A stretch of 57,266 nucleotides of DNA from Myxococcales bacterium (GCA_019637115.1 JAHBWH010000032.1:1-57266), one strand, 5' to 3'. Positions 1 to 49,807 are shown, numbered from the stretch's first letter. Translations and numbers: made by a program. The notes: generated by a model not told the origin, from the letters alone.

Positions 1-2256
1 GCAGGCGTCGCCCGTGCAGCAAGGCTGGCCAGCGCCGCCGCACGCCACGCAGCCGCCGCCGTCGCAGACGCCCGCGGCGCAGCTCGTGCCTCCACAGCAG
101 GGCTGCCCGATGTCCCCGCACGCGGCACAGACGCCGCCGTCGCATTGCGACCCGCTGCCGCAGAGCGCGCCCTCGCAGCACGGCTCGCCGACGCCGCCGC
201 AGCTCACGCAGCCCCCGCCCGCGCAGACCACGCCGGACGCCGAGCAGGTGTCCCCCGCGCAGCAGAGCTGACCTTCGCCGCCGCAGCTCGCGCAGCTCCC
301 GCTCGCGCAGACGAGGCCTGCGTCGTCGCAGAGGCTCCCTTCGCAGCACGGCTCCGACGGGCCCCCGCAGCTGGCGCAGAGGCCGGCCGAGCAGATGACG
401 CCGGATGCCGAGCAGGCGCCGCCTGCGCAGCAGGGCTCGAGGGAGCCGCCGCAGCTCGCGCAGCTGCCTCCCTGGCAGAGCAGGCCCGCGCTGCCACAGG
501 TGTCACCCGCGCAGCACGGCTGCGACGCGCCGCCGCAGGGCGCGCAGGCGCCCGCCTGACAGACGAGCGCCGCGCCTCCGCACGTGTCTCCTGCGCAGCA
601 AGGCTGGCCGCTCGCGCCACAGCGCACGCACGCGCCGCCCTGGCAGAGCAGGTCCGCCGCGCCGCAGCTCGCGCCCGCGCAGCATGGCTGCGCGAAGTCG
701 CCGCAGGGTAGGCACGCGCCGCTCTGGCAGACGAGCCCGCCATGATCGCACGTGCTGCCTGCGCAGCAGGCCTGCCCGCTCCCGCCGCAGGGCAGGCAGG
801 CGCCGCCCTGGCAGGTCAGGGCGCCCGTCGCGCAGGCGCCCCCCGCGCAGCAGGGTAGGCCGCTCGTCCCGCAGGGCGTGCACGAGCCGCTCGCGCAGAC
901 GAGCGACGCCGTGGAGCAGCTGCTCCCCGCGCAGCAGAGCTGGGTGACGCCGCCGCACGGCGCGCAGACGCCAGCGCTGCACACGCCGCCGACCTCGCAG
1001 CTCGAGCCGCTGCAGCAGGGCTGACCGATCCCGCCGCATGCTTGGCAGGTGCCGCCAGCGCACTGCGACCCCGCAGCGCAGACGGCGCCAGCGCAGCAGG
1101 GCTCGCCCGGCGTGCCGCAGCCCTCGCACGTTCCTGCAGCACCGCAGACGAGGCCGGCGTCGCCGCACGTGTCGCCGACGCAGCAGAGCTGGCCCGGGCC
1201 GCCGCAGGTGACGCATCGGTCGGTCGCGTCGCAGGCGAGGGCGGCGGCGTCGCAGCTCCGCCCGGCACAACACGGTTGATCGAGTCCGCCGCAAGAGGCG
1301 CAGGTCCCGGCGGCGCACACGCTCCCGGCCACGGTGCACGTCACGCCCCCGCAGCACGGCTGCCCGAAGCCGCCACAAGACTCGCAGCGGTCGGCGGTGC
1401 ATTGGGCACCGGGGTTGCAGACATTCCCCGCGCAGCACGGATCGGTCGGGGTGCCGCAGCGCTCGCACGTCCCGGCGGCGCAGACCAGGGCGCCGGGATC
1501 GCACGTGTTGCCCGCGCAGCAGGCCTCGGTCAGGCCGCCGCACGGCGTGCAGCTCCCCGCGACACAGGCGAGGCCTACGTCGCTGCACACCGAGCCCTCG
1601 CAGCAGGGGGTGCCGTCGACGCCGCAGCGGGCGCAGCGACCTGCGAGGCAGAGCCCGCCGACGTCGCAGGCGTCGCCGTCGCAACAGACCTGCTCGAGCG
1701 CGCCGCACGCCTCACAGCGCCCCGCGACGCAGGCGTTCCCGAGCGAGCAGAGCCCGCCCGCGCAGCAGCGGTCCGCGGCGCCACCGCACGCGACGCACTC
1801 GCCGGTCGTGCACACGCCCTCGCCCTCACCGAAGGCGCACGTCGTTCCGTCCTCTGCGTCCACCGCGACGCAGCCGTCCGAGTCGACGACGCAGGTCCCG
1901 ACACGGCAGAGGCCGTCACCCGCCTCGCTGCAGTCGCGCGTCTCGCCGCCGCCGCAGCGGCCCGCGGCGCAGACGGTGTCGCGCGAGCACGGGTCACCGT
2001 CGTCGCAGAGGCTGCCGTCCTCGAGCCGCTCGGCGACGCAGCGACCCATCGCGTTGCACACGCCGACGGCGCAAGGGCCGTCGAGGTAGGCGCACTCCGA
2101 GGTCGCGCGGCACGTCATCCCCGCGTCTTGAGGGCCCGCGTCCGTCGTGTCGGGGCGGAGCCCGGTCGGGTCGACCGAGCAGCCGAGCCCTCCGAAGAGG
2201 AGCGCGAGGGCGAGCAGGGAGGTGGGGGTCGGGTTCGCGGCGCGCGATGGGTTCAT
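1..2256 (-). CDS. Cys-rich repeat lipoprotein, 3' end beyond window
   Basis: The reading frame is open from the ATG at 2256 to the left edge, giving 752 visible residues with no stop, so the C-terminus is missing. The N-terminus is a lipoprotein signal with lipobox GGLGC and then a Pro/Asp-rich linker. Residues of about 45-150 hold spaced Cys motifs of the CDDGDPCS type. From about residue 150 onward there are some two dozen copies of a unit of about 27 residues reading CGG.GQPCC.G..C..G..C..G.C. The periodic paired Cys suggest a rod of small disulfide-rich modules on the outer surface. No enzyme motif is visible and the function is unknown. It is divergent from the TPR gene at 2420. Frame and start are secure; the role is not. 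Confidence 0.85.
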   Translation of the reverse strand, partial: MNPSRAANPTPTSLLALALLFGGLGCSVDPTGLRPDTTDAGPQDAGMTCRATSECAYLDGPCAVGVCNAMGRCVAERLEDGSLCDDGDPCSRDTVCAAGRCGGGETRDCSEAGDGLCRVGTCVVDSDGCVAVDAEDGTTCAFGEGEGVCTTGECVACGGAADRCCAGGLCSLGNACVAGRCEACGALEQVCCDGDACDVGGLCLAGRCARCGVDGTPCCEGSVCSDVGLACVAGSCTPCGGLTEACCAGNTCDPGALVCAAGTCERCGTPTDPCCAGNVCNPGAQCTADRCESCGGFGQPCCGGVTCTVAGSVCAAGTCASCGGLDQPCCAGRSCDAAALACDATDRCVTCGGPGQLCCVGDTCGDAGLVCGAAGTCEGCGTPGEPCCAGAVCAAGSQCAGGTCQACGGIGQPCCSGSSCEVGGVCSAGVCAPCGGVTQLCCAGSSCSTASLVCASGSCTPCGTSGLPCCAGGACATGALTCQGGACLPCGGSGQACCAGSTCDHGGLVCQSGACLPCGDFAQPCCAGASCGAADLLCQGGACVRCGASGQPCCAGDTCGGAALVCQAGACAPCGGASQPCCAGDTCGSAGLLCQGGSCASCGGSLEPCCAGGACSASGVICSAGLCASCGGPSEPCCEGSLCDDAGLVCASGSCASCGGEGQLCCAGDTCSASGVVCAGGGCVSCGGVGEPCCEGALCGSGSQCDGGVCAACGDIGQPCCGGTSCAAGVCDGGGCVACGGAGQPCCTGDAC

Positions 2257-2419
2257 GAGGTCCGAGCGACGCAAAAACGCGAAGCGTATCCAAGGTTTCC
2301 AGAGCGGCGAACGAGATGCAAGAACATGGATCACGAGGGCCGCGAGCAGTCGCGTTGAAGTCGTGCAGCAGCGGCGCTCGCCGGTCTCCTTCGGCACGTC
2401 GGGTGCATGCGGCGCGACG
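2257..2419. promoter_or_regulatory. Divergent intergenic region
   Basis: This gap separates two divergent starts and is locally less GC-rich (for example 2270-2310) than the flanking genes, as expected for a bidirectional promoter region. I could not identify confident -35/-10 boxes. The real start of the rightward gene may lie further downstream, which would enlarge this gap. Confidence 0.4.
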
Positions 2420-3940
2420 ATGCTTCGCGGAACGTCGGGCCGCCCAGACCAGGCCGTCACCCCCGCCCGCCTCGAAACGCCCGCGATCGAGGCGCGAGGG
2501 CCGGACGCTCGACGTGCGTCCGGTGTTCAGGATTTGGTCGGTGGGGTGGCGGATGTGCCCGCCGAGCACGAGCGGCTGCTCGAGCGCTGGCAGACCATGC
2601 ATGACCGTGGGTTCTTCGCCGCCGCGCTCGTCGCGATTCAACAGGCGCTCCTGCTCGAGCCCGCCGACCCGCGCTCGCACCATCGCCGGGCGCTCACGTT
2701 GATGGAGCTGGGGCATGTGGACGAGGCGCTCGCGACGATCGACGCTGCGGGAGAGCTCGGCGTCGGGGCGGCGGACGCGGACGTGCGCGCCCTGGTGCTG
2801 CGTCGTTTCGGCCGGGTCGACGAGGCCCCCGCGTCCGAGGTCCCAATCGAGATCGAGGTCGAGGTCGAGGTCGAGGCGGACTCGCCACGGGCCGCGTCCG
2901 CCCGCGCGACGGGGGACGACGTGGCCGCGGACCCTGACGTCGACCCAGGGCTCGAGGTCGACCTCCTCGTAGGGCTCGAGGTCGCGGTGGGCGGGGTGGA
3001 GGTGCCAACCGCGAGCACGGGGCACCTCGCGTCCGGGGTGCAGCGAGCGGAGGTGTCGGAGCCGTCCGAGGTGTCGGAGCTGCTCGAGGTGTCGGAGCTG
3101 CTCGAGGTGTCGGAGCTGCTCGAGGTGTCGGAACCGTCCGAGCCGTCCGAGGTGTCCGAGTCGGTGTCCGAGTCGGAGTCCGAGTCGGTGTCCGAGTCGG
3201 AGTCCGAGTCGGTGTCCGAGTCGGTGTCCGAGTCGGTGTCCGAGTCGGTGTCCAAGTCGGTGTCCAAGTCGGTGTCCGAGTCGGTGTCCGAGTCGGAGTC
3301 CGAGTCGGAGTCCGAGTCGGTGTCCGAGTCGGTGTCCGAGTCGGTGTCCGAGTCGGTGTCCGAGTCGTCCGAGTCGGTGTCCGAGGTGTCCGAGTCGGTG
3401 TCCGAGGTGTCCGAGTCGGTGTCCGAGTCGGTGTCCTTGGTGTCCTTGGTGTCCGAGGCGCTCGAGGTGTCCGAGGTGCTCGAGGTGTCGGAGGTGCTCG
3501 AGCTGGTGAGCGTGGACGCGCTCCCTCTCGAGGTGCTTGGGCCCGCGCCCGAAGACCCCGTCGCGGCGTGGACCGCGGTGATCGACCGATCGCCCTTCGA
3601 CGCGTCGGCCTACGCGATGCGCGGCGCGTGCCGCGCGGACGCGGAGGTGTGGCTCCGCTTCGCCGACTACGTCACGGCGCTCCTCGTCGCGCGGGAGACC
3701 TGGGAGCTCTGGAACGAGACGGCCGAGGCGCTCCAGCGTACTCGTCCGGCGCTCGCGGCCGCGCGCCCGACCGAAGCCGTGCTCGAGAACGCGCGTCGGT
3801 TCGTGGCGTGCGGCGCGCTGGGCGAGGCCGAGCACGTCGTCCGTGAGCTCCTCGAGGTCGCGCCTCGCGTGCGCGGGCTGCAGCGCTTCCAAGCGTTCCT
3901 CGCAGCATCGCGCGTGGCCCACCGCTCCGGGCGCGCCTGA
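2420..3940 (+). CDS. TPR protein with Ser/Glu repeat tract
   Basis: Two TPR-like helical pairs lie near the start (region [20 protein letters not shown] and the following [20 protein letters not shown]). Next come Glu/Val-rich segments and, from about 3054 to 3450, a low-complexity tract of SELLEV units and then VSES/ESES units. A C-terminal helical domain follows ([18 protein letters not shown] onward), ending in a TPR-like segment. No signal peptide is seen, so it is probably cytoplasmic. The start is uncertain: ATG 2420 was chosen, but GTG 2546, GTG 2555 or ATG 2597 fit nearly as well, and the sequence before about 2540 has weak coding character. Function is not recognised; TPRs suggest protein-protein interaction. 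Confidence 0.6.
3157..3448 (+). repeat. In-frame hexanucleotide array
   Basis: Imperfect hexamers GTGTCC, GAGTCG and GAGTCC alternate over nearly 300 bp inside the TPR gene, encoding VS and ES dipeptides. An 18 bp unit GAGGTGTCGGAGCTGCTC is tandem just upstream (about 3085-3130). Because six is a multiple of three, length changes would keep the frame. Confidence 0.85.
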
Positions 3941-4056
3941 CGTCTGCCGCGACGTTTTGCCGCATGGCCCAGCCCTCGCGACCGCGCGAGGCTCGAGCCG
4001 TCGAGCGGGCCGAACTTCCGAGTCGAGCGCGGTCGACGAAGGAGTAGGCTGAGGCC

Positions 4057-5319
4057 GTGAGCGTCGAGGTCGAGCATGTCGCGCTGCCGGGCCCCGGATG
4101 GCTCGTGAAGCTGCGGTGGGTCGCCGTGGCCGGAGAGGCCACCGCGCTCCTCGCCGCAGTGCTCGTCGGCCTGGAGCTCCCGATCGTGCCCCTCGTGCTC
4201 CTCGTCGGCGGGCACGCCGCCTCAAACGAGATCCTCCGCCGAGTGGCGCGTCGCGGCGACGTGCGCGAGCACGTGCTCGGCTCCTTCCTCGTCCTCGACG
4301 CCTGGTTGCTCACGGCGCTGCTCGGCTTGACGGGCGGGCCCTCGAACCCCTTCTCGGTGCTCTATTTCACCCAGGTCCTGGTCGCGTCGCTGCTCCTCGG
4401 TCCCGGGTGGACCTTCGCCCTCTGGCTGAACACGGTCTCGGGCTACGCCCTCATCTTCTTCGACCACCGCCCGGTGCCCGGCCTCGGCGCGCACGCGCAC
4501 GGCGGCATGAGCATGCACCTCTGGGGCATGTGGCTCGCGTACGTGCTCACGTCGGGGCTGCTCGCGGCGTTCGTGCTCCGCCTCGCGTCGGCCGCGCGGG
4601 ACCGTGACGCGCGGCTCGCGACGCTCCGCGATCGGGCGGCCCGCGCCGAGCGCGTCGCGAGCCTGACGTCGCTCGCGGCGGGCGCGGCGCACGAGCTCGG
4701 AACGCCGCTCGCCACCATCGCGGTCGTGGCCGGGGAGCTCGCGCGCAGCCTCGACGGCGCCGCCGCCGACGACGCGCGGCTCATCCGCGCCGAGGTCGAC
4801 CGCTGCCGCGCCGTGCTCGACTCGCTCTCGGCGCGCGCGGGCGACGTGACGGGCGCCGCGCCCGAGCCCGTGCGCTTCTCGGCGCTCGCGTCGTCGCTGC
4901 GGGAGAAGCTCTCGTGCGAGCGCGCGGCGCGGCTCGTGGTGCGCGGGGAGGGCGTCCTGCTCGTCCCCGCCGCGCCCGTGCAACAAGCGCTCGAGAGCCT
5001 CGTGGCGAACGCCTTCGACGCGAGCGCGCCCGAGTCCGAGGTCGAGCTGCGGCTCGAGGCTGGCGACGCACCGCGCGTCCTCGTCGTGGACCGCGGCGAG
5101 GGCATGGACGCCGCGCAGCTCGCCCGGGTCGGAGAGCCCTTCGTGACGACGAAGGCGGGGCGCGGGCTCGGCCTCGGCGTCTTCCTCGCCAAGGTCACGG
5201 CGGAGGGGCTCGGCGGCGACCTACACGTGGAGAGCGCCGTCGGCGAGGGGACGACGGTCACACTCACCTTGCCGCTGGCGGCGATGGGCACCGAGGGGAT
5301 GATGGAGAGCACGCGATGA
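4057..5319 (+). CDS. regB: RegB/PrrB-type redox-sensing histidine kinase
   Basis: The protein has 420 residues. Residues 15-180 contain about six membrane helices with the motif GGPSNPF at 93-99, matching the quinone-binding signature GG..NPF of RegB. The H-box AAHELGTPLATI carries the phosphoryl-accepting His at 212; this wording is typical of the RegB/PrrB/ActS family. Cys250, in EVDRCRAVL, lies 38 residues after that His, close to the position of the redox-active Cys of Rhodobacter RegB. The C-terminal ATPase domain has N- and G-box elements (LVANAFDAS, VVDRGEGM, GRGLGLGVFLAK). The start is GTG 4057 with AAGGAG about 10 bases upstream. It overlaps the partner regulator gene by ATGA. It probably reports the respiratory quinone/redox state; targets here are unknown. 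Confidence 0.88.
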   Translation: MSVEVEHVALPGPGWLVKLRWVAVAGEATALLAAVLVGLELPIVPLVLLVGGHAASNEILRRVARRGDVREHVLGSFLVLDAWLLTALLGLTGGPSNPFSVLYFTQVLVASLLLGPGWTFALWLNTVSGYALIFFDHRPVPGLGAHAHGGMSMHLWGMWLAYVLTSGLLAAFVLRLASAARDRDARLATLRDRAARAERVASLTSLAAGAAHELGTPLATIAVVAGELARSLDGAAADDARLIRAEVDRCRAVLDSLSARAGDVTGAAPEPVRFSALASSLREKLSCERAARLVVRGEGVLLVPAAPVQQALESLVANAFDASAPESEVELRLEAGDAPRVLVVDRGEGMDAAQLARVGEPFVTTKAGRGLGLGVFLAKVTAEGLGGDLHVESAVGEGTTVTLTLPLAAMGTEGMMESTR

Positions 5320-5879
5320 ACGACGAGCACCCCGAGGACGCGCCGAGCACCATCTTGGTCGTCGACGACGACGACGTGTTCCGACCGCGCATCGCGCGCG
5401 CGTTCCGGCAGCGCGGGTACGAGGCGTGGGAGGCGCCCGGGCCCGAGGAGGCGCTCGCGATCGCGCGCGAGCACGCGCCGGAGCTCGCGCTCGTGGACCT
5501 GCGCATGCCCGGCGGCAGCGGCCTCGACCTCGTGCGAGGGCTCCTCGGGATCGAGCCATGCACGAACGTCGTCGTGCTCACGGGGTACGGCAGCATCGCG
5601 ACCGCGCTCGAGGCGGTCCGCCGCGGGGCGACCCATTACCTCACGAAGCCGGCGGACGTCGACGAGGTGCTCGCCGCCTTCGCGCGCAAGGATCTCCCCG
5701 CCGACGCCGAGGCGCCGGAGCTCGACGCGCCCGCGCCCTCGCTCGCGCGCATGGAGTGGGAGCACATCCAGCGCGTCCTGACCGATTGCGGGGGGAACGT
5801 GAGCCACGCCGCGGCGCGGCTCGGCATCCACCGGCGGTCGCTGCAGCGGAAGCTCTCGAAGTTCCCAGTGGCCCGGTAG
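5316..5879 (+). CDS. regA: RegA/PrrA-type response regulator
   Basis: The protein has 187 residues. Residues 12-125 form a receiver domain with the acidic pocket VVDDDD, phospho-acceptor Asp61 (LVDLRMPG), a Thr in VVLTGYGS and Lys in YLTKPAD. A linker leads to a Fis-type helix-turn-helix ending HRRSLQRKLSK, the hallmark of RegA/PrrA/ActR. Its ATG overlaps the kinase stop (ATGA), so the two are translationally coupled. In proteobacteria this family controls respiration, redox and carbon metabolism genes. The haem/copper-type secreted proteins nearby are conceivable targets, but no operator was identified. Confidence 0.88.
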   Translation: MNDEHPEDAPSTILVVDDDDVFRPRIARAFRQRGYEAWEAPGPEEALAIAREHAPELALVDLRMPGGSGLDLVRGLLGIEPCTNVVVLTGYGSIATALEAVRRGATHYLTKPADVDEVLAAFARKDLPADAEAPELDAPAPSLARMEWEHIQRVLTDCGGNVSHAAARLGIHRRSLQRKLSKFPVAR

Positions 5880-13792: not shown

Positions 13793-14254
<462 letters not shown>

Positions 14255-38617: not shown

Positions 38618-41600
38618 TCAGCGCCGACGTCGCCACAGCGCGAGGGCTGCGAGCGAGAGGAGCGCGAGCGGCCACGGATCGTCGCCGCTCGGGCTCGCTG
38701 CGCAGAGCGCGCCGCCGCTGTAGGAGCCCTCGAGTCCCGCGTCGAAGCCGCCGTCCGCGGGACCCGCGTCAGGAATGAAGCCGGCGTCCGGCGTGAAGCC
38801 GGCGTCCGGACGCTCGACCACGATCGTCGTCGAGTCGCTCGCGGTGTTCCCGGCGGCGTCCGTCGCCTCGGCCGTCACCTCGTAGGTCCCCGGCCCGAGC
38901 GGCGAGATCTCGAGCGTCCACGTCCCATCCTCGCCGACCGTCGTCGAGCCAGCCTCGACGCCGTTCACCGTGACGACGACCGTGGAGCCGGGCTCCCCGG
39001 TGCCGCTGACTCGACCCGAGGGATCGACGTCGGTGATCGCGACCGTCGTGCTCGTGTCGACCGTGAAGGTCGACTCGTCGGAGGCCATGTTGCCGGCCGG
39101 ATCCGTGGCGGTCGCCGTCGCCGTGTGCGTACCTTCGGGCAGCGGCTCCATGACGTCGATCGTCCAGAGCCCCTCGCCGTCGGCGGTCACGGTGCCGATC
39201 TCGCGCGTCTCACCGTCGACCTCCACCGTCACGACGATGGTCGCGCCTGGTACCGCGGTCCCCGAGATCGTCGGGGTGGTGTCGTTCGTGGAGGTGCCGT
39301 TGGCGGGCGAGGAGATCGCGACCTCGGTGTTGGCGTCGATCGTGAACGTCGACGTGGCGGACGCGGTGTTGCCCGCCGCGTCGGTCGCCCGCGCCTCCGC
39401 CGTGTAGGTTCCGTTCGGGAGCGGCTCGGCGACCGTGACCACCCACGTACCATCGGCGCCGACCGTCGCGCTCCCGATCTCTTCGCCGTCGAGGGTCACG
39501 ACCACGGTCGCCCCGACCTCACCCGTACCGCGCACGCTCGGCGTGGAGTCGAGCGTGGTGCCGCCGTCGGCGGGCGAGGTGATCGCGACCTCCGTGACCG
39601 TGTCGACGATGAAGGTCGACATGTCCATCGCGCTGCCGTTCGAGGTGCTCACCTCGGCAGTGGCGACGTGCATCCCGTCCGCGAGCGGCGCGCCGAGCGC
39701 GAGCGCCCACATGCCGTCGGCGCCCGCGGTCGCGGTGCCGACGAGCACGCCGTCGACGCTCACGCTGACGGTCGTGCCAGGGGTCGCGGTGCCCGCGATC
39801 GTCGGCGTGGCGTTCGCGATCGCGGCGCCGTCGTCCGGGACGACGATCGTGACGGCGACCACGGCGCAGGCCGCCGCCGGGGTGCAGACGCCGAGGGAGC
39901 ACGCCGCCCCCGCCGCGAGCGCCGTCGTCGAGCAGCTCCCCGCGCCGCAGGCGTTCGTCGTGCACTCGTTGCCATCGTCGCACTCCGAGGCCTCGAGGCA
40001 TTGCACGCAGGCGAAGGCGGTGAGGTCGCAGCGCGGGGTCGGCGCCGCGCAGCGGCTGTCGTCGATGCAGGCGACGCAGACGCTCGTCGCCGTGCAGACG
40101 CCGTCGGGACATGCGGTCCCCTCCTCGACGCCGGTGCTCCCGCACGCACCCGCGGCGCAGACGTCGGTGGTGCAAGCGTTGCCGTCGTCGCAATGCGACG
40201 CGAGGAGGCACTCGACGCAGGTGTTCGTCGTGGTGTCGCAGAGCGGGGTCGGGGCGGCGCATTGCGCCGCGCTCACGCACGCGACGCACGTGTTCGAAGG
40301 CGCGCCCGAGCAGACCAGGCCGCCCGCGCAGGCCCCGGGCGAGCCCGCCGCGACGGGGTCGTTCTCGCACGCGCCGCTGACGTTGCAGAGGTCCACGGTG
40401 CAGGGGTTCGAGTCGTTACATGCGGCGTCGCTGTTGCAGCGGGCGACGCAGGTCCCCTCGTCGCAGCGCCCGCTCGGGACGCAATCGCCCGAGCTGGCGC
40501 AGCCGGGGAAGCCGACCTCGATGCGGCAGGTGCCGCTGCAGCCGTCGCCATCGACGAGGTTCCCGTCGTCGCAGCCCTCGCCCGCGCCGACGACGCCATC
40601 GCCGCAGCCGGGGATGCGGAAGGGGGTGAAATAGCCGAAGAGTCCCGTCCCCGACGTCGACGTCGCGAGGCCGAGCTGGAAGTCGGCCCCCGCGCGGACG
40701 CTGTGGTTGCCGCCCGTCACGTCGAAGGTGACGGCGGTCAGGTCGGGTCGCCCAGGTACGGTCGCGTTCCGCAGGAACGTGGGCACGGATCCGTCGAGCC
40801 GGAGCGTGCCGATGGCGGCGGTGGCGATCACGACGCCCACCTGACCCGCGCCCGAGACGTTGAAGTCGGTCACCCAATCGCCGACGGGTGCGAGCACGAC
40901 GGGCGGGATGATCGCGACGTCGATCTCGCAGCCCGCGCGGCCGGTGTTCTGGTAGACGTACGCGGGCGCGCTGGTCTCGATGTACATCAGCGTGGTGGCG
41001 CCCGAGAAGGTCGCGCGGTGGACACCGCCAGCGGCGAGGGTGGCGACCAGCGATCCGTTGATGCGGACCTCCGTGTCCGCCGTGTCGGCGACGATCGCGA
41101 CATCCTCCCCTTCCGTCGACGGGGTGGGGAAGCTGTGCACCACGTACTGCGTTCCGATGCCGGTCGTCGGCAGGACGTTGTCGGCGCCGTCGTCGCCGCA
41201 GCCACCGGCGACGTCGCAGATCCCGGACCACCCGCGGCCGCCCGTCTCGACGACGATCGGGTCCGAGGAGGTGACGAGCGCGCCCATCGTCTCGCGGGTG
41301 CAGACGCCCCCCGGGATCGTCCGCGCGACGTAGGTCTGCCCGGGCGCCAGCGTCACCGAGAAGCTGAGCGTCGCGGCGGCCTGCCAGAAGGGCGCCGCGG
41401 CGCTGGGGGGCGCCGTGAAGGTCACCGTCCCGCCGAAGGGCGCGTAGACGCTCGCGTAGTCGAAGCCCGTGTCCGCCGTGCCGTCCCGGTTCAGGTTGTA
41501 GGCGCCCAGGCGGAAGCGAGTGCCCAGCGCGTAGTTGGCGTTCTTGATCGTCGAGGAGGACTGCCAGGGGCCGACGATGAGCCGGTGGTTGACGATGAGC

Positions 41601-41983: not shown

Positions 41984-42259
41984 CGAGGTCTCCCCTGGAG
42001 CGCGTCGTACGGCGCCCCGTCCACGTCGAGCGAGAGCGTAGCGAACGACCGGATGGTGTGGACAGAAGATTTAGGAGCGAGCGGAATCGCGTGCGGACTC
42101 CGGGATGGGGAGCTCTGGCGTGTCGCAGGCTTTGCGCGGCGCGCCCGATGCGCCAGGCTCTCGGCGCGGGAACCGAACGCCGCCCTCGGGCGTCGTAGGG
42201 GAGGCGCGGGCTTCCGGCTCCGTACACCTCGCTCGGGAGCCGCGCGGCGAAGGACGACG

Positions 42260-42982
42260 ATGGCGATACGAATTCGTGGGCTACAGGTGCGCTATCGCGA
42301 CCCCCGAGGCCGGGAGCTGACGGTGCTCGACGTCGCGGACCTGACGATCGACGAGGGGCGGCGGCTCTGCCTGGTCGGAGGGTCGGGCAGCGGCAAGACG
42401 ACGCTCTTGAACGTGCTCGCGGGCATCGTGACCCCGACCTCGGGGGAGGTCCGCTACGGCGAGGTGGACATCACGAAGCTCGCCGAGGCAGAGCGAGATC
42501 GCTTCCGGGCGAAGAACGTCGGCTACGTGTTCCAGAGCTTCAACCTGCTGCAGGGGCTGAGCGCGCTCGAGAACGTGGCGATCGCGGGCTCGTTCGGCGG
42601 GCTCTCGGCGCGCGAGGCGCGGGCGCGCGCCAAGGGTCTGCTCGTGCGGGTCGGGCTCGAGCGCCGCCTCGACGCGCTCCCCGGCACGCTGAGCGTGGGC
42701 GAGCAGCAGCGGGTCGGGATCGCGCGGGCGCTCGTCAATCGGCCGAAGGTCGTGCTCGCCGACGAGCCGACCGCCAGCCTCGACGAGGATCGTGCGGACG
42801 AGGTGCTGGAGCTGCTCGAAGAGATCGTGGCCGAGGAGGGCTCGACGCTCGTGCTCGTGACCCACGAGGCGCGGGTGCGAGAGCGCTTCTCGGACGTGCT
42901 GGATCTGAAGGCGTTGAAGTCTTCGCCGTCGACGCCCGCGTCGAAGGGCCGGGCGGAAGAGGCTCGGGAGGAGGCGCGATGA
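42260..42982 (+). CDS. LolD/MacB-type ABC transporter ATPase
   Basis: The protein has 240 residues with AAGGACG before ATG 42260. ABC motifs are Walker A GGSGSGKTT, Q-loop VFQSFNLL, signature LSVGEQQRVGIARAL, Walker B VVLADEPTASLD and switch VTHEAR. It matches the MacB/LolD type that works with FtsX-fold permeases. Its stop overlaps the permease start (ATGA), so the two are coupled. The permease and the third gene suggest metal handling rather than lipoprotein release. Confidence 0.88.
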   Translation: MAIRIRGLQVRYRDPRGRELTVLDVADLTIDEGRRLCLVGGSGSGKTTLLNVLAGIVTPTSGEVRYGEVDITKLAEAERDRFRAKNVGYVFQSFNLLQGLSALENVAIAGSFGGLSAREARARAKGLLVRVGLERRLDALPGTLSVGEQQRVGIARALVNRPKVVLADEPTASLDEDRADEVLELLEEIVAEEGSTLVLVTHEARVRERFSDVLDLKALKSSPSTPASKGRAEEAREEAR

Positions 42983-44763
42983 CCCTCTGGCAGCTCATCG
43001 TCCGGCAGCTCGCGCAGCGGAAGCTCTCGTCGTTCCTCACGGGGCTCGGCGTCGCGCTCGGCGTGATGCTCGTGAGCGGCATTCTCGTGCTCCAGGATCA
43101 GATGGAGAAGCAGATGCTCGAGCCAGGCCGCGGCTACTCGCTCGCGGTCGGGGCGCCGGGCTCGGCGCTCCAGCTCGCGCTCAACGCCGTCTACCACCTC
43201 GACAAGAGCCCGGGCCTGATGCCCATGCGGACCTGGCTCGAGCTCGAGGGTGACGACAGCGTCGCGCTCGCCGTGCCCTACGCGGTCGGCGACTCGTTCC
43301 GCGGCTACCGCGTGGTCGCGACGACCGAGGCGTTCTTCGATCGGCGGTTCCCTCACCCGGAGGGGGAGGGGCAGGAGAAGCTGGCCGAGGGGCGGCCCTT
43401 CGACTTCTCGCGCGAGCGGCTCTTCGAGATGCTCGACCGGATGGGGGCCGCGTCGTTGACCGAGGGCGCGGCGGAGCCCGCGTCGGCGGAGGGTCCGGAG
43501 GGAGAGCACTCGCACGCTCACGAGCACGAGGGCGAGCACGCGCACGAGCACGATGCCGACGAGCGCGGGGACGAAGGCGAGCACGCGCACGCGCACGAGC
43601 ACGCGGCGCGCGCCGCCCACGAAGGCGAGCGCGCGCACGACGGGCACGACCACGCTGCGCACGCTGCGCACGAGGGTGAGCACGCGCACGAGGGTGAGCA
43701 CGCGCACGAGGGCGAGCACGACGAGCACGACGGGCATGACCATGCCGCGCACGCGCACGAGGGTGAGCACGACGGGCACGACCAATCCGCGCACGCTGCG
43801 CACGAGGGCGAGCACGCGCACGAAGGCGAGCACGACGGGCACGACCACGCCGCACATGCCGCGCACGAAGGCGAGCACGCGCACGAGGGTGAGCACGACG
43901 AGCACGACGGCCACGAGCACGCCGCGCACGGCGACCACGACCACCACGACCACGACCACGACCACGGCGGCGTGATGGAAGCAGTGCTCGGCGCCGAGGT
44001 GGCGCGCGCGCTCCGCATCCGCGTCGGCGACATGATCGAGCCGACGCACGGCATCGAGGACGACTCGATGGCCCACGACCATGAGCACCTCTGGAAGGTC
44101 GTCGGCATCTTGAAGCGCACGGGCACGCCCGTGGATCGCGTCGTCTTCATCAACCTCGACAGCTTCTTCGCGATCGACGAGCACGCCGCGGGCGGCCTCA
44201 TCCCGGGGACCCAGGAGGCCGCGCTGAGCAGCGTGCTCCTCTTCCCGCGCGGCGGGGTGCACAAGGCGATGTTGCTCTCGCGCCTGAACCGGCGGCCCGA
44301 CGTTCAGGTCGCGGACGTGAACGAGCAGATCCGAAACCTCTTCACGATCGTCGGCAGCGTGGACGTGCTCTTCTTCATCGTGAGCATCCTGGTGGTCGTG
44401 ATCGGCGTGCTCTCGATCCTCGTCGCCATCTACAACACCATGAACGAGCGGCGGCGCGAGGTCGCGATCCTCCGCGCCATCGGCGCGCGAAGGAGGACGG
44501 TCTTCGGCGCGATCGTCGGGGAGGCCGCGACCTTGACGGTCTTCGGCTCCCTGGCGGGGCTCGTCCTCGGGCACGTGCTCGTCTGGGCGGCGAGCGGCCA
44601 CATCGGCGAGGTGGCGGGCTTTCGGCCGCTCGCGAGCACGCTGCTGCCGGCGGAGCTCCTGGTGGTCGCGATCGTCACGGCTGGTGGGGCGCTGGCCGGC
44701 GTGGTGCCTGCGTGGAAGGCTTACTCGACCGACGTCGCCGAGAGCCTGCGCCCGCTGTCCTGA
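42979..44763 (+). CDS. FtsX-type ABC permease with His-rich periplasmic insert
   Basis: The protein has 594 residues. Its architecture is MacB/LolC-like: one N-terminal membrane helix (SSFLTGLGVALGVMLVSGILV), a large periplasmic domain, then three C-terminal helices (VLFFIVSILVVVIGVLSILV; AATLTVFGSLAGLVLG; LLVVAIVTAGGALAGVV) with the conserved YNTMNERRREVAILRAIGA loop. Residues about 175-330 of the periplasmic domain are a repeat tract of GEHAHE, GEHDEHDGHDH and DHDHHDHDHDH type holding about 50 His plus many Asp/Glu, a likely multi-site Zn, Ni or Cu binder. The insert is coded by an 18 bp-type minisatellite in frame. The flanking permease sequence is intact. Substrate and direction are inferred. 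Confidence 0.85.
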   Translation: MTLWQLIVRQLAQRKLSSFLTGLGVALGVMLVSGILVLQDQMEKQMLEPGRGYSLAVGAPGSALQLALNAVYHLDKSPGLMPMRTWLELEGDDSVALAVPYAVGDSFRGYRVVATTEAFFDRRFPHPEGEGQEKLAEGRPFDFSRERLFEMLDRMGAASLTEGAAEPASAEGPEGEHSHAHEHEGEHAHEHDADERGDEGEHAHAHEHAARAAHEGERAHDGHDHAAHAAHEGEHAHEGEHAHEGEHDEHDGHDHAAHAHEGEHDGHDQSAHAAHEGEHAHEGEHDGHDHAAHAAHEGEHAHEGEHDEHDGHEHAAHGDHDHHDHDHDHGGVMEAVLGAEVARALRIRVGDMIEPTHGIEDDSMAHDHEHLWKVVGILKRTGTPVDRVVFINLDSFFAIDEHAAGGLIPGTQEAALSSVLLFPRGGVHKAMLLSRLNRRPDVQVADVNEQIRNLFTIVGSVDVLFFIVSILVVVIGVLSILVAIYNTMNERRREVAILRAIGARRRTVFGAIVGEAATLTVFGSLAGLVLGHVLVWAASGHIGEVAGFRPLASTLLPAELLVVAIVTAGGALAGVVPAWKAYSTDVAESLRPLS

Positions 44764-44784
44764 CGCCGCGGGGCCTCGTCGAGT

Positions 44785-44909
44785 GACGTCGCCGAGCGCC
44801 TGCGGCCGCCGTCCTGGTCGTGAACCCGGCTTGCGCGACGGGCCCGCTCGTCGAGGGGGCGGTCGCGCACCGGTTGCGGTGGCTCGGGGCGTCCCCGCGT
44901 GGAAGGCTT
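44785..44909 (+). pseudogene. Remnants of a second permease C-terminus
   Basis: Bases 44785-44817 match the last 33 bases of the permease (44731-44763, up to its stop codon) at 29 of 33 positions. Bases 44891-44909 match 44704-44722 (encoding VPAWKA) at 17 of 19. The two segments are in reversed order and in different frames, so they are decayed partial copies rather than a gene. Confidence 0.5.
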
Positions 44910-44963
44910 GCGCGGCGCGGCCGGGGCCTCACGCTCCGAGACGTGTCGCGCGAAGGTCCCGAG

Positions 44964-46016
44964 ATGAGCGAGAAGAAGCAGAACGACTCCGGTGAGCCCG
45001 CTGCCGAGGGTGCGGTGGACGAGACGTCAGCGGCCGAGCAGGCCGAGGCGTCGTCGGTCGAAGACGCCGGAGCGAAGGCCGAGACGTCCAAGGCCGGGAA
45101 GCCCGAGGCGGCTACCGAGGCGAGCGCGACGCCGGAGGTCGCGAAGGGCGGCAAGTCCCGCGGCGCCAAGCCCGGCGAGGGCGATCCGAAGGGCCCGAAG
45201 CGTGGCCCCATGGACACCGTCATGCGGGGTCTCATCATGGTCGCGCTTGGCGCGTTCGTGACGACGCCGCTGTGGTGCCAGGCGTCGCAGACCGAGAATT
45301 TCCGCCGGACCGAGTTCCGCGCGGATCGCGCGGACGACTCCAACTCCACCGAGGGGCGCCTGGCGGCGGTCATCCGGCGGCTCATCACCACGGCCGCGCA
45401 GGATCGCGAGGTCGACGAGGGCGAGGCGATGCGCGAGCTCTCGACCATCCTCGCGGAGGCAGGCATCGGGACCGCGCAGGGGCGCGTGCAGGCGACCGAC
45501 CAGCTGATCGGCGACATCCTCGCGCAGGCCGCGGAGGCGGACGGCCGCAGCTTCGGGCAGATGCAGGAGCAGGCGATCCTCGGTCAGTCCCGCATCATGG
45601 CGCGCACGCTGATCACGCAGCTCGGCGGCGATCTCGACGACGACGACACCGAGGATCCGCCGGGCGACTGGACCAACGCGTCGTGGCCCGTGATCAGCGG
45701 CTTCCAGTACGAAGAGGGCATGGAGCTGCCGGCGGCGGTCCAGGCGCTCGACGGTAAGGACGCCAAGGCGTGGGGCTACCTGCTCTACCTCGAGGGCGAT
45801 CAGTACCTGCTCGTGCAGAGCCTCTGGAGCTGCTGCTTCGGGCAGCCGCCGGACCTGCACGAGGCGATCGTCATCCGCGCGAACCCGAACGTCGCGGCGC
45901 GTTTCGAGAGCCGCGGCGTGAAGGTCTACGGCCGCTTCGAGGCGAGCGAGATGCGCGAGGACGGCTACGTCACGAGCCTCTACCGGCTCGACGCGCGTCA
46001 CATCAAGGCGATGTGA
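44964..46016 (+). CDS. Membrane-anchored DUF3299-like protein
   Basis: The product has 350 residues from ATG 44964. Residues 1-85 are Ala/Glu/Lys-rich and disordered; one membrane helix follows (MRGLIMVALGAFVTTPLWC). A middle helical region precedes a C-terminal domain (about 235-345) with the path WPVISGFQYEEGMELPAAV, KAWGYLLYLEG, LLVQSLWSCCFGQPPDLHE. Spacing and the CC..PP motif resemble DUF3299, a family I recall beside zinc-linked FtsX-type ABC systems (Vibrio zrg). Cys-Cys and His are potential metal ligands. It lies 200 bp after the permease on the same strand. The family call is from memory of motifs, not a search. Confidence 0.65.
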   Translation: MSEKKQNDSGEPAAEGAVDETSAAEQAEASSVEDAGAKAETSKAGKPEAATEASATPEVAKGGKSRGAKPGEGDPKGPKRGPMDTVMRGLIMVALGAFVTTPLWCQASQTENFRRTEFRADRADDSNSTEGRLAAVIRRLITTAAQDREVDEGEAMRELSTILAEAGIGTAQGRVQATDQLIGDILAQAAEADGRSFGQMQEQAILGQSRIMARTLITQLGGDLDDDDTEDPPGDWTNASWPVISGFQYEEGMELPAAVQALDGKDAKAWGYLLYLEGDQYLLVQSLWSCCFGQPPDLHEAIVIRANPNVAARFESRGVKVYGRFEASEMREDGYVTSLYRLDARHIKAM

Positions 46017-46063
46017 ACCAAGGCGATGTGAACCAAGGCGATGTGAGCCAAGGCGATGTGAGC
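46004..46063 (+). repeat. Four 15 bp repeats that include a stop codon
   Basis: Units CAAGGCGATGTGAAC start at 46004, 46019, 46034 and 46049 (the last two with G for A near the end). Unit 1 encodes the final Lys-Ala-Met and the TGA of the DUF3299-like gene. If the first TGA were read through, the following units would supply further in-frame TGA codons, because 15 is a multiple of three. Confidence 0.93.
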
Positions 46064-49670: not shown

Positions 49671-49690
49671 AGAGTTCCAGCTCCTGCCCC

Positions 49691-49807
49691 GAGCTCCTGC
49701 CCCGAGCTTCTGCCCCGAGCTTCTGCCCCGAGCTTCTGCCCCGAGCTTCTGCCCCGAGCTTCTGCCTCGAGCTTCTGCCCCGAGCTTCTGCCCCGAGCTT
49801 CTGCCCC
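49691..49807. repeat. Nine 13 bp repeats downstream of yidD
   Basis: Units GAGCTTCTGCCCC begin every 13 bases from 49691 to 49795; the first has CTCC and the sixth has a single T change. A partial unit precedes the array. Reading frames over it repeat every 13 residues, which shows they are artefacts. Confidence 0.93.

Follow-up and report, generated by a model that had tools for sequence, protein, structure and literature searches.

A putative Zrg-like ABC system with a His-rich tract in its permease in a Myxococcales bacterium

Of all zinc transporters, Zrg systems (ZrgABCDE of Vibrio and PA4063-PA4066 of Pseudomonas aeruginosa) are some of the least understood, and their permeases have a fold that usually performs mechanical work rather than import. 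They comprise a separate MacB-type ATPase of the ATP-binding cassette (ABC) class, a four-helix permease and a DUF3299 protein (ZrgE of V. cholerae, of which PA4066 is the homologue; PMC9820375). ZrgA and PA4063 bind zinc, partly via His-rich loops (PMC9820375, PMC8561739), and the Vibrio data have been read as zinc import (PMC9820375, PMC9817125). Here we analyze a three-gene operon in a 57,266-nucleotide stretch of DNA from a Myxococcales bacterium (GCA_019637115.1 JAHBWH010000032.1:1-57266), hereafter called the window, to whose full length all coordinates refer; G000 denotes the window's own genome and other G-numbers denote other genomes. The operon encodes an ABC ATPase, an FtsX-type permease that carries a His-rich tract, and a predicted DUF3299-type protein. 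It is a real feature with a sound list of parts, and is a variant related to the known Zrg systems. We lean, with modest confidence, towards reading it as a Zrg-like zinc-handling system in which a type VII ABC complex has a DUF3299 partner and the tract concentrates metal.

The operon and its His-rich permease tract

All three genes lie on the plus strand as an operon, and the layout given in a preliminary description of this DNA was verified for coordinates and reading frames:

42260..42982, plus strand: ABC ATPase of LolD/MacB type, 240 residues (Pfam ABC_tran, 119 bits)
42979..44763, plus strand: FtsX/MacB/LolC-type permease, 594 residues, with four predicted transmembrane helices and a large periplasmic domain (Pfam FtsX and MacB_PCD; fold matches)
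43501..43968, plus strand: His/Asp/Glu tract, permease residues 175-330, with 51 His in irregular tandem repeats
44964..46016, plus strand: predicted membrane-anchored DUF3299-type OB-fold protein, 350 residues, with an SLWSCCFGQPP motif

The ATPase and permease genes share a 4-base ATGA overlap, so that joint translation is probable; the third gene begins 200 bp beyond the permease. The permease matches Pfam FtsX (63 bits) and MacB_PCD (40 bits). Because the closest solved folds to its predicted structure are LolC, LolE, HrtB, MacB, and FtsX, it is assigned as a likely type VII ABC permease. The model is of modest to low confidence (mean predicted local distance difference test score 57) and has helices at residues 15-47, 447-490, 505-546, and 557-583; since the tract lies between the first two of these four helices, family topology would place it in the periplasmic domain, as the preliminary description had it.

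The same description put about 50 His in some 155 residues of the permease, and the count agrees: the 156 residues from 175 to 330 include 51 His, 30 Glu, 19 Asp, 30 Ala, and 20 Gly, and the remaining 438 residues hold only 10 of the protein's 61 His. The tract is in one open frame with the MacB periplasmic domain and the FtsX domain, between which it lies, and is predicted to be wholly disordered. Its tandem repeats are irregular, with best periods of 63 and 132 bp. Repeat copies differ mostly at third codon positions (0/1/6, 0/0/7, 1/0/5, and 3/4/11 differences by codon position), in overlapping and thus non-independent pairs that were chosen by nucleotide identity, amino-acid choice being liable to favor synonymous changes. 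This pattern fits selection on the amino acids of the tract. Val-rich open frames on the opposite strand over the tract were considered and rejected as an unsupported mirror of the repeats.

Six further genomes in the family of the window carry the operon: G001, G004, G007, G009, G010, and G016. The tract occupies one common permease site, at which the His count is 51 in the window, 58 in G001, 15 in G007, 16 in G010, and 4 in G016, and at which the permeases of G004 and ERR2206771 (G271) have one His or none. In G009 the contig ends inside a tract of the same kind, so that tract lengths taken from draft assemblies may not be exact. His/acidic tracts are kept in five relatives with repeat units that vary by genome (EHAHEG, DEHT, EHHDDED), all combining His with acidic residues. 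In a permease tree from which G009 was left out, the tract-bearing sequences form one clade (support 0.99), and ERR2206771, G318, and G004, which lack the tract, branch immediately outside it; no His tract was present in the more distant Myxococcota and Zrg permeases compared. Scanning contigs with the permease alignment gave only seven loci, its patterns being too specific, and wider relatives were reached via a profile of the third protein and tblastn against plasmids. A literature search of incomplete coverage found no paper on a His-rich FtsX-type permease. The G001 tract (L073 6001-8268, permease residues ~190-330) also holds two ExbD/TolR-like segments, at a Pfam E-value of 0.0015 that is under the cut-off.

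Other repeats lie close by. The gap between the second and third genes contains a 45-nt repeat (82%) and a 39-nt repeat (74%) of permease sequence:

44764..44963, plus strand: intergenic stretch in which the permease 3' end recurs in partial, decayed copies (repeat comparison)

The third gene's stop codon lies within a 15-bp tandem repeat, CAAGGCGATGTGAAC, present in 3.9 copies at 46004-46061. Dozens of further tandem arrays occur in the window (e.g., 3151-3436, 13829-14234, 49679-49807), which indicates that repeats expand readily in this genome.

The third protein and kinship with Zrg systems

The third protein was initially described as DUF3299-like, which profile and fold comparisons bear out, although in a direct hidden Markov model comparison with Pfam DUF3299 (PF11736) the protein itself scores 16.7 bits, under the gathering cut-off of 22. 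Its counterparts in G004 and G249 pass the cut-off, at 22.2 and 22.1 bits, respectively. A profile built from eight family members matched a single PDB chain, PA4066 (4hsp; E 0.0011), and in a Foldseek search the predicted structure of the third protein gave 4hsp first (E 7.6e-7, template modeling score by target 0.55) as the sole match below 0.001. The model is disordered over residues 1-83, has a hydrophobic stretch at ~84-104, and ends in a helical and OB-like part, resembling the OB-type fold of PA4066. The third protein is thus classed, from profile and model, as a distant DUF3299 member. Run on the protein's own genome, the Pfam DUF3299 profile gave no match at E 0.001; the control was likewise unmatched, and this result was not taken as absence.

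The CCFG motif noted at the outset is genuine: W-S-C-C-F-G-x-P-P is invariant in all eight aligned family members. In the alignment, WSCCFGQPP of the window falls opposite ACIHVPPPP of ZrgE and the CPFC of a third group, discussed below. A DUF3299 paralogue without ABC genes occurs in G001 (L012 8256-10296), together with a ZIP-like small membrane protein that has no Pfam match, a dCTP deaminase, and the end of a COG0523 gene; the G004 operon is also flanked by dCTP deaminase-like and COG0523 genes. In distant Myxococcota, a small protein with a HGGTLLVFGDEFAHLELVLD-type motif is encoded directly before DUF3299 and ABC genes (L109 6459-6995, L112 5273-5632, L113 6182-6544), and the two examples tested had no Pfam match.

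With a permease of FtsX/MacB type, a separate ATPase gene, and a DUF3299 protein recognizable through 4hsp, the operon shares its main parts with Zrg systems. Searching by tblastn with the permease of a tract-free relative reached Zrg permeases at ~28-32% identity, and recovered the Zrg operons of Phaeobacter (a Fur-family gene, DUF2796 or ZrgA, ATPase, permease, DUF3299) and of P. aeruginosa (the same set minus the Fur gene). ZrgA (PF10986, DUF2796) itself had no match in G000 or the six relatives, where both control records matched. Because no separate DUF2796 protein was found, we class the system, on sequence grounds, as Zrg-like rather than Zrg. It differs from Zrg further in having the His tract within the permease instead, and in a DUF3299 protein that is longer, is predicted to be membrane-anchored, and has CCFG where ZrgE has ACIH.

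Comparison with other transporters sharpens the picture. The type VII ABC systems LolCDE, MacB, HrtBA, and FtsEX have a similar permease fold and topology but differ in partners, gene company, and the His tract. In ZnuABC a zinc transporter likewise has a His-rich, disordered loop close to it, that of ZnuA, but the permease fold is different and the substrate-binding protein is separate.

A further set of relatives is linked to alkaline phosphatase. In Deinococcus, Paracoccus, Shinella, Qingshengfaniella, and Thermus plasmids, an alkaline phosphatase gene is followed by genes for a DUF3299-like CPFC protein, an ABC ATPase, and an FtsX permease:

~1000-5600 in each of L093, L095, L096, L098, and L100: alkaline-phosphatase-linked loci

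The systems of Deinococcus, Thermus, Paracoccus, and Shinella resemble the window's in permease superfamily, in a DUF3299-like small partner, and in having no ZrgA beside them; they differ in the CPFC of that partner, which had no Pfam match, and in the alkaline phosphatase neighbor. The permeases of Paracoccus and Shinella carry a His/acidic insert of their own, in another periplasmic loop than the window's. The set could possibly be a zinc delivery system for a zinc enzyme. Taken with the separate His inserts, the linkage suggests that zinc is handled in the periplasm and that His loops were gained independently.

Zinc-type neighbors and a candidate Zur operator

Evidence from neighboring genes and operators comes from the relatives of the window operon. 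TonB receptor genes diverge from the operon in G001, G007, and G009, and COG0523 GTPase genes adjoin the operon, or distantly related ones, in G004, G379, G096, and G206. A palindrome first noticed in G004, TGCAACNNNGTTGCA, precedes the operon there exactly, and in G007 and G009 with one mismatch. It also precedes the COG0523 gene in G000 (~15 bp upstream), G001, and G004, the DUF3299 paralogue in G001 and, with two mismatches, the DUF1826 gene in G007, and it lies near a Fur-family gene in G004. As a Zur cluster that combines COG0523 with DUF1826 has been described (PMC2770081), the palindrome is probably the Zur operator of the window's family. Total counts exceed the reversed control in G004 and G007 only, and the operator argument therefore rests on position, not number. 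No copy was found near the operon in the G010 and G016 loci. By association in the relatives, the link to zinc is good but indirect, and zinc-type regulation is a candidate likeness to Zrg. Two further lines of evidence for that link are the tblastn path to Zrg operons and the zinc binding of ZrgA homologues (PMC9820375, PMC8561739).

The palindrome also precedes a TonB receptor gene (palindrome loci: G004, G007, G009, G000:C91, and G001:C400; L015, L011, L066, L063, L065, and L012). Look-alike exported proteins without a Pfam match are encoded behind or near the candidate operator at L011 13342-14067, L063 9137-9958, and L064 5609-6385.

At the window operon the operator is missing, which is another difference from Zrg. 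Matches in the window are at chance level, the nearest being at 40424:

41984..42259, plus strand: upstream region, without a TGCAACNNNGTTGCA site at up to three mismatches (motif scan)

Mode of action, rival explanations and significance

In the zinc-handling reading favored here, ATP binding and hydrolysis by the ATPase and four-helix permease would move the periplasmic domain by mechanotransmission, as in MacB and LolCDE. The flexible His/Asp/Glu loop would bind Zn2+ or a similar divalent ion loosely, giving a high local concentration beside that domain and doing locally what soluble, His-rich ZrgA does elsewhere, and the membrane-anchored DUF3299 protein would act alongside in the periplasm. 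We infer that the tract binds metal, that this metal is zinc, and that ZrgA has been replaced. A precedent for the same logic is UreG, which has a His stretch in cases where UreE is absent (PMC2770081).

Several observations weigh against this reading. Besides the missing operator, counts of one-mismatch palindromes do not exceed the reversed control in G000, G001, and G009, and the operon-linked TonB receptor has no close counterpart in the window genome (best 38% identity; 64% between G001 and G007). The genome also encodes a canonical ZnuA, so that the Zrg-like system is probably not its only zinc route. Three sister systems (G004, ERR2206771, G318) have the same ABC and DUF3299 arrangement without the tract; since these lineages keep permease and DUF3299 protein alike, the tract appears, at the level of sequence, not to be essential to the system. 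The preliminary description had itself named tract-free permeases in relatives, should they keep their function, as evidence against its claim, and in sequence such permeases exist. Neither G004, with its one stray His, nor G016, with four, has ZrgA, and the absence of ZrgA therefore does not require a tract. The preliminary description held that a metal binder had been fused into the permease, making a separate one needless. The periplasmic His tract, the Zrg-like parts, the zinc-type neighbors in relatives, and the absence of ZrgA make a binder built into the permease plausible, but G004 and G016 weaken the second half of that claim. Lastly, work in P. aeruginosa argues for export of a pyochelin-cobalt complex, not zinc import (PMC11481552), and the literature on direction is thus in conflict between Vibrio import and Pseudomonas export.

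Alternatively, the complex might power some step within the periplasm, for instance the transfer of zinc to exported metalloenzymes, and not carry zinc across the membrane; this overlaps the zinc-handling reading and differs from it in direction only. LolCDE, FtsEX, and MacB, relatives of the fold, do act by mechanotransmission, and related genes for an ABC system and a CPFC OB-protein directly follow that for the zinc enzyme alkaline phosphatase. No gene for that enzyme was recognized beside the operons of the window's family, though, linkage alone gives no direction, and the growth phenotype of Vibrio zrg mutants under zinc limitation was read as import (PMC9820375); we hold this to be a tentative possibility. 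In line with the proposal for PA4063-PA4066, the system could also export or detoxify cobalt, nickel, copper, or zinc as a metal or metallophore complex, and the tract would then serve as a sink in the periplasm. Known permeases of the MacB fold act in export or as mechanical devices, the heme exporter HrtBA is among the fold matches of the permease, and PA4065 mutants accumulate cobalt with pyochelin (PMC11481552). We nevertheless judge export unlikely: COG0523, DUF1826, and TonB receptor neighbors in the relatives point to scarcity, not excess, and no partner of MacA or TolC type was noticed in the vicinity of the operon, a genome-wide search not having been made.

The core could be metal-linked and the tract largely a non-functional tandem-repeat expansion in a disordered loop. 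Tract length and make-up do vary widely (4 to 58 His), sister lineages lack it, the loop is predicted to be disordered, and the window is rich in other arrays; yet different repeat units have all become rich in His and acidic residues, and the predominance of third-position differences points to selection on the protein, which makes this explanation rather doubtful. An ordinary envelope ABC system of the LolCDE/FtsEX kind, with no metal role, is very improbable and was rejected as an identity. The best curated matches are indeed LolD for the ATPase and LolC/E for the permease, but at 195.6 and 55.3 bits they are far under the NCBIfam equivalog cut-offs of 307.75 and 362.45, and the DUF3299 partner and the zinc-type neighbors in relatives do not suit it.

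The best reading of the family is that its ABC and DUF3299 core may work without ZrgA and that one clade has added a putative metal-binding loop. Conceivably, though we hold it only tentatively, a metal-catching module has moved from a soluble periplasmic protein to an expandable His/acidic permease loop, within an ABC and DUF3299 superfamily whose zinc handling takes place in the periplasm (e.g., for alkaline phosphatase) and is not simply import. A natural ZrgA-free variant with graded tract lengths in close relatives offers a ready comparison for the role of the His-rich part, and the conserved ABC and DUF3299 core in ZrgA-free genomes suggests that ZrgA is the part that can be replaced.

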